A DNA stretch of 64,000 nt from assembly GCA_019753105.1 (NCBI GenBank), contig JAIELJ010000006.1, positions 1 through 64,000 on the forward strand, in the 5' to 3' direction. Positions 22,037 to 24,848 of this stretch are shown in pieces (within the stretch, counting starts at the first letter, position 1; each line of letters starts with the position of its first letter). A model generated the notes under the pieces. That model was given only the letters and a program-made list of their open reading frames with translations, had not been told where the DNA came from and did not search any database. The position numbers were made by a program, and so were the translations under genes. The DNA is from Hyphomonadaceae bacterium (GTDB lineage: Bacteria > Pseudomonadota > Alphaproteobacteria > Caulobacterales > Aquidulcibacteraceae).

Positions 22037-22190
22037 CGGTCAAATAAGTGTCGGTAAGGTCACAGGTTCCGGAGAGTGCGCGGCGCGTCCAGCGCGGGCC
22101 AGAAGCCGCATCCCTGAGGCGAGCGCGCGCCATTGCCAAGCCTTAATGTGCCCGACTAGGTTCCCCTGCGAGGGGTGGGGCAGTTTTTAA

Positions 22191-23462
22191 ATGTCGATAG
22201 CGGCGTACCTGGCGTTTGAACCAGCCGACGAAGAAGCGGCTCGTCAAATCGCCGCTGAGCTTGAGCGCTATGAATGGACCGTCGCCCGGTCCAGTCCGGA
22301 ATTGCGTCAGAGCGACCGGCTTGCCGCGCTGGTTCAAACTGTCGGCGAGGCGGCAGTCGTAGTCGTGCTGGCCTCAAACGCGGCGCAGGACAGCACGTGG
22401 ATGCAGCGCGAGGTCGCTGCGGCGCTGAACAACGGCCGGCCGATGATCGTGGTGATCACAGGGCCGCTTGCGCCGGATTCGTGGATCACAGCTACGCTCG
22501 ACACCGCCACCGCGATTGATCTCACGCGCGGCGCGCGCTCGGAGGCGCTCTCACAGATCAGCGATCGCGCGCGCACGGCGTCAGGACGCGGACGCGTGAT
22601 CGCGATGCTCAACATCAAGGGCGGCGTCGGCAAGACAGTGCTGGCGGCGAACCTGTTCGCGGCGGCGCATCTAGCGGACAAACGCTCGGTCAGCTTCATC
22701 GACCTCGATCCGCAACACAATTTGACGCAGTATTTTCTCTCGCCCGGCGAGCGTCACCGTATCCGCGACCGCAATCACACGATCTACAACGTGCTTAATC
22801 CGCGTGGCGACAGCAGCCTCTCGCGCAACGATTTCGGCGCGATCTCCGTCCCGCTCAATCGCGCGCGCGGCAAACAACCGAATTTCGAATTGGTTGCCGG
22901 CGACGAGCGCTTGTTCGAGTTCACGCTCGATACGCGCTCGGACCGCGACAAAGCCGAGGCGTTCACCAGGTTTCGCGCGCTCATTGCCTCCCTGCGCGCG
23001 CGTTCGGACGCCGTCGTGATTGACTCCAATCCATGCGCCACCTTCCTCACCCGATTGGCGATTACGTGCGCCGACCACATCGTCGCCCCGGTGCGTCCGG
23101 AGAAATACTCGCTCACCGGTTTGAACATGCTGGAGCATGTGGTGCGCGAAGTGAGAGGTAGAGCCTTGCGACCGAGTGAGTTCTCGGTGCTTCTAAACGG
23201 CGTGAACGACCGCACCCGATCCAGCGAAACTGGCGATGCCGACAGCCTGACCCGCAACGAAATTGCGGCAGCGCCCTTCTTTGCCTCGGCATTATTGCAG
23301 GATGAGGTGCCTTACTCGGCTGTGCTGCGCTCGGCCCCGAGCGAGCGGATCGCCGCCAACCCCATTAACGTCACAGCGATGATGCGGGTGGGCGGAAGAC
23401 CGGCCAAGGAATCGCTTGCCCGGGCGGCGGCAGCGATTTTGCGTCGGGCAGCGCCGCAATGA
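22191..23462 (+). CDS. TIR-domain / ParA-MinD-type ATPase fusion protein
   Basis: The 423-residue protein has two parts. Residues 1-115 read as a TIR domain: AAYLAFEPADEEAARQIAAEL, the hydrophobic strand AAVVVVLASN and W70-MQR-E74, where Glu74 falls at the place of the catalytic glutamate of NAD-cleaving TIRs, then GRPMIVVITGP. Residues 134-423 are a deviant-Walker-A ATPase: NIKGGVGKT (signature Lys143, P-loop Lys148), FIDLDPQHNLTQYF (Walker A', Asp171/Asp173) and VVIDSNP (Walker B). A classical ParA would bind DNA and a partner protein. It starts at ATG 22191 without a clear Shine-Dalgarno, and its stop overlaps the next start (ATGA). Function unknown; signalling, defence or positioning are all possible. 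Confidence 0.85.
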   Translation: MSIAAYLAFEPADEEAARQIAAELERYEWTVARSSPELRQSDRLAALVQTVGEAAVVVVLASNAAQDSTWMQREVAAALNNGRPMIVVITGPLAPDSWITATLDTATAIDLTRGARSEALSQISDRARTASGRGRVIAMLNIKGGVGKTVLAANLFAAAHLADKRSVSFIDLDPQHNLTQYFLSPGERHRIRDRNHTIYNVLNPRGDSSLSRNDFGAISVPLNRARGKQPNFELVAGDERLFEFTLDTRSDRDKAEAFTRFRALIASLRARSDAVVIDSNPCATFLTRLAITCADHIVAPVRPEKYSLTGLNMLEHVVREVRGRALRPSEFSVLLNGVNDRTRSSETGDADSLTRNEIAAAPFFASALLQDEVPYSAVLRSAPSERIAANPINVTAMMRVGGRPAKESLARAAAAILRRAAPQ

Positions 23463-23869
23463 AGCTCACGGCTGAACAGACGAAGGCGCTGAAGACGCTG
23501 GCGAAGGGGCGAAAGCCCGCCGAGTTGAAGAAGCTTTTTGCCGCCATCCGCAAAATCGAGGACCGCGCCCTGCTCGCCGCGATCGCCCCGGCGAAAAAGA
23601 AGGCCGCGAAGCGCAAAGCCGATCCGCTGGTGCGGGAATTGGAGCAGACGCTGAAGCCGATCATGGGGCCAGCGGCCGAGAAGGCCGACATGCTGGTCGA
23701 GCACATCGCCAAGAAGCACAAGCGCAAGCTTGGCATAGCGCCGAAGGGTATCGCGGATGCGGCCAAGCAACTGCGCGCCAAATTCTCAGACGATCAGATT
23801 CGTGCTGGCGCGCAGAGCCTGATGAGCCACCTCGCTAAACTCTATGGCGACCGCGAAACTGTCGTGTAA
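23459..23869 (+). CDS. Small basic protein coupled to the TIR-ParA gene
   Basis: I do not recognise this 136-residue protein. It is rich in Lys, Ala and Leu, predicted all-helical, with a strongly basic centre (APAKKKAAKRKADPLVREL) and a second basic patch (EHIAKKHKRKLGIAPKGIADAAKQL). No signal or membrane segment is present. The ATG lies in an ATGA overlap with the stop of the TIR-ParA gene, so the products are made together in a fixed ratio. By analogy with ParA partners it may be a DNA-binding or ATPase-stimulating protein, but this is inference. No other function can be suggested. Confidence 0.82.
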   Translation: MKLTAEQTKALKTLAKGRKPAELKKLFAAIRKIEDRALLAAIAPAKKKAAKRKADPLVRELEQTLKPIMGPAAEKADMLVEHIAKKHKRKLGIAPKGIADAAKQLRAKFSDDQIRAGAQSLMSHLAKLYGDRETVV

Positions 23870-23919: not shown

Positions 23920-24387
23920 ATGACAATCTCCCAACTCGGTTTCGACCTTACCCCACCTAACGACGACGAACGCGAGCGCCTCGAAGCGTCGCTGAATGAC
24001 GAAGAGCGCCGCGTGCTGCTGCATCACGGCACGGAAGCGCCGTTCTGTGGCGGTTTGTTGGGCGAGAAAAAATCGGGCGCCTATTGCTGCCGCCTCTGCG
24101 GCCTGCCGCTTTTCCGCTGGGACACCAAGTTCGACAGCGGCACCGGCTGGCCGAGCTTTAACGCGCCGATCGATCCCAAACACGTCGTTGGGATCGAGGA
24201 TAATGCCTACGGCATGCGCCGTATCGAAACCCGCTGCGCCCGCTGCGACAGCCACCAGGGCCACGTCTTTCCGGACGGCCCGCGACCGACGGGGCTGCGC
24301 TATTGCATCAACTCAGTTTCGCTGAGCTTCGTCCCTGACGGGGAGCCTCTGCCGGATCCGCTCAGCCGTGGCGAGGCGCTGGCCTAA
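23920..24387 (+). CDS. msrB: Peptide-methionine (R)-S-oxide reductase MsrB
   Basis: MsrB repairs the R epimer of oxidised methionine. From ATG 23920 it has 155 residues. The zinc-binding pairs are C57/C60 (CRLCG) and C106/C109 (CARCDSHQGH), the GTGWPSF substrate loop is present, and the catalytic Cys129 lies in RYCINSVSL. A longer GTG-start version (23893) adds nine residues without family support. The stop codon overlaps the stop of the convergent small gene. Confidence 0.95.
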   Translation: MTISQLGFDLTPPNDDERERLEASLNDEERRVLLHHGTEAPFCGGLLGEKKSGAYCCRLCGLPLFRWDTKFDSGTGWPSFNAPIDPKHVVGIEDNAYGMRRIETRCARCDSHQGHVFPDGPRPTGLRYCINSVSLSFVPDGEPLPDPLSRGEALA

Positions 24388-24608
24388 AGCTTTGCGCTGC
24401 GTAGCTGATCGATGAGCCGATCCAGGTCGCGCCGCATGGAATGGAGCACGACATCGTCGGCCGGGGCGGTATCGCGATAGGCGCAAAACGCCTTCGACAT
24501 CACCTTCCCGACCAACAGATTGGCTTCGTTGGTATCGTTGGTGAACTGCTTCGCCTTGGCGGCAAGCTCGCCCTGGTTCTGCAGTATGGCCATTACAGGT
24601 TGCGCCAT
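24384..24608 (-). CDS. Small conserved hypothetical protein (74 aa)
   Basis: The protein starts MAQPVMAILQNQGELAAKAKQF and ends VLHSMRRDLDRLIDQLRSAKL, and is predicted to be two amphipathic helices. The ATG at 24608 has an excellent ribosome binding site, GGAGG seven bases upstream, which decides this start over the longer frame. It is convergent with msrB, with overlapping stop codons. I cannot assign a family; size and helical nature would fit a small regulator or phasin-like coat protein, but nothing in the sequence proves it. Confidence 0.75.
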   Translation of the reverse strand: MAQPVMAILQNQGELAAKAKQFTNDTNEANLLVGKVMSKAFCAYRDTAPADDVVLHSMRRDLDRLIDQLRSAKL

Positions 24609-24848
24609 GACGCGCCTCCGCTCTGCTATCCGGGCCGTACGTTCCCCCAGTCCGCGCGGCAGAGACCAAAACGATAGCAGACTTTTCCCCAAATAAGAGC
24701 GGAAAGTGATTTTCGGGGATTACTTTTTCTCAAAATCGTTCCGGCACACCCTGCGCTCAAGCCTTTGTTAAGCGCGTTCGCGCGCAATGAATGCCGATCA
24801 GCAGCGCGAGCTTGACGTTCTGAAAGGTTCGGCGACCATGAGCGCCTC

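Follow-up and report, generated by a model that had tools for sequence, protein, structure and literature searches.

The window that we analysed, a 64,000-nucleotide stretch of a bacterial genome (C1:1-64000), contains two overlapping genes on its forward strand. The first (22191..23462) is an open reading frame of 423 amino acids in which a TIR domain is joined to a ParA/MinD-type ATPase, and the second, which we call P2 (23459..23869), encodes a protein of 136 amino acids and overlaps the stop codon of the fusion by the sequence ATGA. The TIR domain occupies residues 1-122 of the fusion (22191..22556) and includes a WxxxE motif from W70 to E74 (22398..22412). The core of the ATPase spans residues 135-324 (22593..23162), with a deviant Walker A motif, KGGVGKT, at residues 143-149 (22617-22637) and an aspartate, D171, at 22701-22703. 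Both domains score above their Pfam cut-offs (TIR_2 and AAA_31). A sequence-only reading of this DNA had proposed a single polypeptide that combines a TIR domain with a complete ParA ATPase, with W70, E74, K143, K148 and D171 as key residues and a 136-residue gene beginning inside its stop codon, and our analysis bears out each of these points.

A promoter-like block on the forward strand (TTGCCA-N18-TAGGTT, 22133..22162), recognised by its match to the consensus only, lies 28 bases before the start codon of the fusion. Allowing for minor differences in the final hexamer, it is present in 15 of 19 loci tested from the window's own genus and in none of four loci from other genera, as scored with a pattern drawn up after viewing these very sequences. 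A hairpin that we saw by eye in the window, 5' of the start codon, is not conserved among relatives as judged by eye. The coding sequences are under purifying selection: dN was lower than dS for the TIR domain, the ParA domain and P2 in all eight pairs of sequences compared, with dS at about 1 or more in most of them. In these pairs the TIR domain and P2 evolve faster than the ParA domain.

The ATPase half has an AAA_31 match at residues 135-324 (E = 8.7e-24) and CbiA and MipZ matches that also exceed their Pfam cut-offs. When a structural model of the whole fusion was used as a Foldseek query, the top matches were Soj and ParA chains (1wcv, E = 1.2e-12). NCBIfam partition profiles match the ATPase as well, far below their cut-offs. 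The genome has two other ParA-like loci besides the copy in the window, and its ParA/ParB_N pair is located at C1:433006-434472. Within the window there is no match to ParB_N and no parS-like site at up to three mismatches from the consensus, so the locus does not have the adjacent parB and parS of a ParABS partition system. As a member of the ParA/MinD ATPases, this half of the fusion would be expected to bind nucleoid DNA or a membrane as an ATP dimer.

The N-terminal half is a TIR domain by its Pfam profile: TIR_2 matches residues 7-122 with an E-value of 5.5e-11 in the whole protein and 3.9e-12 in the N-terminus alone, its score of 43.4 bits exceeds the curated cut-off of 28, and it was matched at E ≤ 0.01 in all 43 members of an alignment of fusions. 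An AlphaFold2 model of the fusion, made from this alignment of 43 sequences (mean pLDDT 88.5, pTM 0.88), has strands and helices alternating over residues 3-131, in an order that fits the TIR fold, followed by the ParA domain. Since no TIR structure is among the best 50 Foldseek rows for the whole-fusion model, we base the assignment of the fold on the strand-helix order of the model together with the sequence profiles. A profile built from the TIR halves of 15 copies, each with the glutamate at position 74, has 67 matches at E ≤ 0.01 among the sequences of solved structures. The best is SARM1 (1.8e-11), followed by plant resistance proteins, Cat1, AbTIR and SPARTA; Toll-like receptors are matched too. 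In the four SARM1 alignments that we examined, E74 aligns with the glutamate of the motif DWVHKE. We take this glutamate to be E642, the putative catalytic residue of SARM1, on the basis of the alignment, PMC7282519 and the numbering of SARM1. The same source describes TIR NADases as requiring self-association, and Toll-like receptors as not being NADases as far as tested (PMC7282519). The window's genome (G000) is rich in TIR domains, with 16 TIR_2 loci including the copy in the window, 14 of them above the Pfam cut-off.

To survey the distribution of the fusion we used an evenly drawn sample of 299 genomes from the order, in which five candidates were scored per genome, so that all counts of fusions are lower bounds. 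The fusion is present in at least 30 of the 60 genomes sampled from the window's family (the first family, f1) and, at a site linked to aroG, in at least 41 of the 61 genomes of a second family of the same order (f2), which we guess to be near Caulobacter. Among the matches listed for the other 178 genomes of the order there is no full-length fusion. One candidate from another family (G055, f5), with a match over residues 20-343 across a stop, proved on re-inspection to be an ATPase half only. The 30 first-family genomes comprise 23 of the 30 sampled from the window's own genus, including one frameshifted copy and one cut by the end of a contig, and seven of the 30 from other genera. At least six further fusions (L060-L064 and L068) are second-site copies, found in one second-family genome (G110) and five genomes of the window's genus (G122, G226, G033, G102 and G276). 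Eighteen related loci carry the labels Hyphomonadaceae, Terricaulis (which NCBI places in Caulobacterales), Caulobacteraceae, Caulobacterales, or unspecified Alphaproteobacteria or Proteobacteria.

Outside the order, none of the matches listed spans both halves of the protein in samples of 387 genomes from the class and 397 from the phylum, with four candidates scored per genome; the two samples share genomes and partly come from the order itself, whose members in them gave three and four fusions, respectively. Plasmid sequences gave matches in 1283 records, none with a single place that covers 80 percent of the query, and none of the best 80 loci on viral contigs matches from before residue 101. 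Such a fusion is not described in the literature that we searched, which consisted of the titles and abstract openings of open-licence articles and so lay outside most subscription journals. PldP proved to be a false lead.

P2 is a basic protein (pI 10.3, with 32 lysines and arginines vs 15 aspartates and glutamates) and has a basic stretch near residues 43-55. It is predicted to be all-helical, with seven helices in the best model (mean pLDDT 77.6, pTM 0.48), a prediction that is less certain than the model of the fusion; the worst of the five models has a mean pLDDT of only 57.8. In Pfam and NCBIfam nothing matched P2 above the curated cut-offs; we found chance-level matches only in PADLOC, and no match at E ≤ 0.001 among solved structures in the PDB. 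A profile made from P2 (E ≤ 0.01) matches 29 of the 299 genomes of the order, all of them among the 30 first-family genomes that have the fusion; in the 30th (G251) the fusion runs off the end of its contig. One extra weak match (E = 0.0032) is in a genome already counted. The two genes overlap by four bases in all 21 loci from the window's genus. In genus g8 the partner is only 79 amino acids long. The profile matched no second-family genome, and its reach is limited, because the partners of the second-site fusions in G110 and G033 escaped it as well. By reading 12 second-family loci we saw no P2-like open reading frame after the stop codon of the fusion.

Homologues of P2 accompany five second-site fusions (L060-L064): in a profile-profile comparison by hhalign they align with it over 123 columns with a probability of 95.2 (score 52.0, E = 2.8e-8), where the controls gave scores of at most 14.1 when the columns were shuffled (60 times) and 14.4 when the profile was reversed. 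L068 was omitted from this comparison because its downstream open reading frame is uncertain. By these profiles the partner is constant in the first family and in at least five of the six second-site copies. P2 is a genuine co-occurring partner of the fusion. The suggestion that the second gene encodes a basic helical partner is thus upheld by its co-occurrence in 29 of 30 genomes, with the helices resting on prediction. Homologues consistently without P2 and beside parB/parS would have counted against that reading, and they are not what these 29 genomes show. In PMC10241942, the charged N-termini of the partners of ParA-family proteins are reported to mediate their action.

We aligned 75 fusions (21 from the window's genus, seven from other genera of the first family, six second-site copies and 41 from the second family), leaving out the frameshifted copy and the copy cut by a contig end. 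Both lysines of the Walker A motif (K143 and K148) and D171 are present in 75 of 75. The column of E74 keeps glutamate in 29 of them and has D, Q, A or H in the other 46. In the window's genus the glutamate is kept in every copy (21/21) and the tryptophan of the WxxxE motif in 19/21; the other first-family genera have E (g10 and g6), A (g5), H (g8) or D (all three copies of g7). Second-site fusions keep the glutamate in 6/6 copies, and second-family fusions in 0/41, with D in 27 and Q in 14. Counted by partner, the glutamate is kept in 28 of 33 copies with a confirmed partner and lost in five, and it is kept in none of the 41 partnerless second-family copies, which form a single clade and hence provide one contrast. 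Within the window's genus, E74 is among the 25 of 125 TIR positions that are invariant, compared with 160 of 271 positions in the ATPase. NAD signalling cannot be the function common to all of these proteins, since 46/75 copies do not have the glutamate and the ATPase residues never vary. Judged from the aligned residues, the ATPase is the constant part of the family and NAD chemistry is optional. The sequence-only reading had proposed NAD-linked signalling; this fails as a general reading of the family, and for the window's genus, with its 21 conserved glutamates, such signalling is possible.

The genomic location of the fusion is conserved. In the window's genus the gene order is glutathione synthetase, aroG (class II DAHP synthase), a gene for an MgtC-DUF4010 protein, the fusion and P2, msrB, a small gene, ate, and a gene that we named cupin-like by eye. 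The MgtC-DUF4010 gene is present in 20 of the 21 stretches from this genus with a full fusion, being missing in L037, and it is also missing next to L013, L016 and L042. In first-family genera g5, g7, g8 and g10 (six loci) aroG adjoins the fusion without the MgtC-DUF4010 gene, and in the g6 genome (G062), which is one of the seven from outside the window's genus, there is no aroG within the 14 kb that we read. Second-family fusions are divergent from aroG and 75-160 bases from it in 40 of the 41 loci, and the stretch around the remaining one breaks off at a contig edge. Rough gene calls in three second-family loci (L052, L055 and L070) revealed no shared downstream partner, the next gene in L052 being a disulphide oxidoreductase gene on the opposite strand. 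The simplest reading is that the aroG-linked copy has been inherited in place.

Two further observations concern this region. The small gene between msrB and ate (24387-24692, reverse strand) is found in most related loci of the window's genus and has no Pfam match at E ≤ 1e-4. In genome G202 (L018 and L069), aroG, the MgtC-DUF4010 gene, the fusion and msrB are all in pieces, a pattern more suggestive of indels in the assembly than of decay.

Seven genomes of the window's genus have no fusion at the aroG site. All seven have aroG, msrB and ate together on a single contig, and five of them also have the MgtC-DUF4010 gene; aroG is split in G236 and ate is split in G291. Searches at E ≤ 1e-4 found neither the fusion nor P2 at the locus in any of the seven, and the same queries match 21/21 loci of this genus that bear the pair. 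In a tree of aroG sequences (26 rows), six of the seven fall into one clade (support 99/98) and G033 is not placed, so the absences represent one or two events and not seven. G033, which has no aroG-linked pair, carries a second-site pair. The fusion and P2 are therefore absent as a unit, and they are dispensable.

The copies that are not linked to aroG have varied surroundings. L064 is near genes for a tyrosine integrase, an AbiTii protein and another TIR protein, and L061 is followed by family-less genes and has a gene with a pPIWI-associated nuclease domain about 3.4 kb away. The pairs at L062:5405-7118 and L063:4704-6373 occupy an identical position next to dxs in two genomes of the window's genus, of which one is G033, with a flagellar rod protein gene near L063. 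L060 lies between genes for a zinc-binding dehydrogenase and an EamA transporter, L247 lies between genes for a PIF1-like helicase and a Cys/Met PLP enzyme, and L068 is on a 4.2-kb contig. When we scanned ten chosen proteins from the loci other than L064 and L061 with PADLOC, only the helicase was matched, over its generic helicase part. Defence-type surroundings are thus seen for two of the seven non-aroG copies (L064 and L061), and no defence-specific neighbour for the other five. The case for a defence context is weak: it holds for these two copies, whereas the main copy has its conserved place among aroG, msrB and ate. The copy in the window is a chromosomal gene that is syntenic with aroG in two families, and not a defence-island gene.

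Trees of the ATPase domain recover the first family and the second family as groups, with support of 98/96 (g6 included) and 100/99 in a 48-row tree and 100/100 and 100/99 in a 27-row tree, and they do not place the second-site copies firmly. In the 48-row tree the second family joins five of the six second-site copies (82/85). The 27-row tree, from which we dropped L050, L060, L064, L068, L076 and L078 (long branches), both Soj rows and some near-duplicates, is compatible with a grouping of the first and second families (75/65) as well as with one of the second family and second-site copies (AU P-value of 0.46).

Several known systems resemble parts of this locus. SARM1, SPARTA TIR-APAZ and Cat1 are TIR NADases with an oligomerising module, whose structures are matched by our TIR profile, and activation by clustering may serve as an analogy for the fusion. 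Unlike in these proteins, the TIR domain is here combined with a ParA ATPase and a small basic partner, and the glutamate is missing from 46 of the 75 relatives. ParA and Soj share with the fusion the deviant Walker A motif, the signature lysine and the Soj fold, but the fusion has an N-terminal TIR domain, no nearby ParB or parS, and a partner of no known family. Pairs of the McdA/McdB type consist, as here, of a ParA-family ATPase and a small adjacent partner gene (in 29/30 first-family genomes, though not in the second family); they differ in that P2 matches no Pfam or NCBIfam family above its cut-off and there is no cargo candidate at this locus. There is weak similarity to Thoeris ThsB over the catalytic helix (ThsB_TIR, E = 5.8e-5; PADLOC ThsB, E = 0.003-0.03). 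In contrast to a Thoeris system, no ThsA-like effector gene adjoins the fusion, whose neighbours encode MgtC-DUF4010 and SelR proteins. PADLOC's PDC-M28B proteins, which are about 430 amino acids long with a ParA-like half, gave a match with E = 0.02. We rejected this name because the five members that we examined, from seven loci, have KGGVGR and, as judged by eye, an N-terminus unlike a TIR domain, as opposed to the KGGVGKT and TIR domain in the window. No PADLOC or NCBIfam model names a TIR-ParA fusion, and the window protein matches PADLOC models only weakly.

We tentatively favour the interpretation that the two genes form an ATP- and DNA-gated TIR switch that has been domesticated in these bacteria. 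The ParA part would bind ATP, dimerise and sit on nucleoid DNA, and the basic P2 protein would bind the ATP dimer and control how it hydrolyses ATP or attaches to a target. Formation of ParA dimers or filaments would bring TIR domains together and, in the window's genus and the second-site copies, this clustering would switch on NAD cleavage, since the TIR domain keeps its catalytic glutamate there, leading to growth arrest or to a nucleotide signal. The aroG-linked copy would be the domesticated, vertically inherited form of a module, perhaps once mobile and perhaps connected with phage, that is also found at other sites and that became a fixed gene beside aroG in the ancestors of the two families. 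In the second family and some first-family genera, TIR catalysis would have been lost and the domain would serve only for binding. We regard a more specific form of this proposal as doubtful: that a nucleoid-bound ParA dimer or filament, tuned by P2, reads the state of the DNA or nucleoid and converts it into NAD cleavage, in a module that Caulobacterales fixed and whose catalysis several lineages dropped.

Nearly as likely as this switch is ParA-type positioning or scaffolding, in which the ATPase would pattern a cargo on the nucleoid, P2 would link the cargo to it, and the TIR domain would be only a protein-binding module even where the glutamate is kept. Such a role would fit the invariance of the ATPase residues in a family where several lineages have lost the TIR glutamate, the synteny with housekeeping genes in two families, and PMC10241942, according to which partner proteins are usual for positioning ATPases of the ParA family. 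It does less well with the retention of the glutamate in 21/21 copies from the window's genus and 6/6 second-site copies despite the fast change of the TIR domain; nor would it predict a second family that retains the ATPase and in which we found no P2, the absence of the pair from seven genomes of the same genus, or the lack of any candidate for the cargo. The divergent position of the fusion 75-160 bases from aroG in 40 of the 41 second-family loci might instead point to a regulator of aroG or its pathway, but this seems quite improbable: an MgtC-DUF4010 gene adjoins the fusion in 20/21 loci of the window's genus, aroG persists in genomes without the pair, and Pfam matched no DNA-binding domain besides ParA.

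Outright phage defence, by depletion of NAD after infection and with the aroG-linked copy included, is unlikely in our estimation, albeit less so than regulation of aroG. TIR is an effector type, L064 and L061 are near AbiTii, TIR, integrase and nuclease genes, and the genome has its 16 TIR_2 loci, but the chromosomal synteny is fixed, whole clades do not have the glutamate, no PADLOC or NCBIfam model names the fusion, and five of the seven non-aroG copies have no defence-specific neighbour by the scan of ten chosen proteins. Least probable of all, to the point that we would be surprised by it, is a leftover ATPase from plasmid or chromosome partition; the NCBIfam partition profiles that would suggest it match far below their cut-offs, the window has no parS-like site or ParB_N, and the genome has a ParA/ParB_N pair elsewhere.

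If the switch interpretation is true, TIR clustering and ParA ATP dimerisation, two well-known switches, would be coupled within a single protein. With copies that have both the glutamate and a partner, copies with neither, and clean absences, the family lends itself to a natural comparison that could show whether domestication of immune-type enzymes keeps the scaffold and drops the catalysis. Caulobacter vibrioides, our control genome, has a TIR_2 match, and if this is a second-family copy a genetic model is at hand.

A separate arrangement is found in four distant genomes (L140:1498-3527, L141:1399-3533, L076:1510-3624 and L078:1459-3450), where a stand-alone ParA relative, a small protein and a protein of 234-250 amino acids with weak, below-cut-off similarity to DUF5677 are encoded in the same order. 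We rejected these loci as split versions of the fusion with P2; the middle gene compared to P2 and to the second-site partners gave hhalign probabilities of 0.2 and 0.5 percent. They are possibly sister systems with a separate third component.
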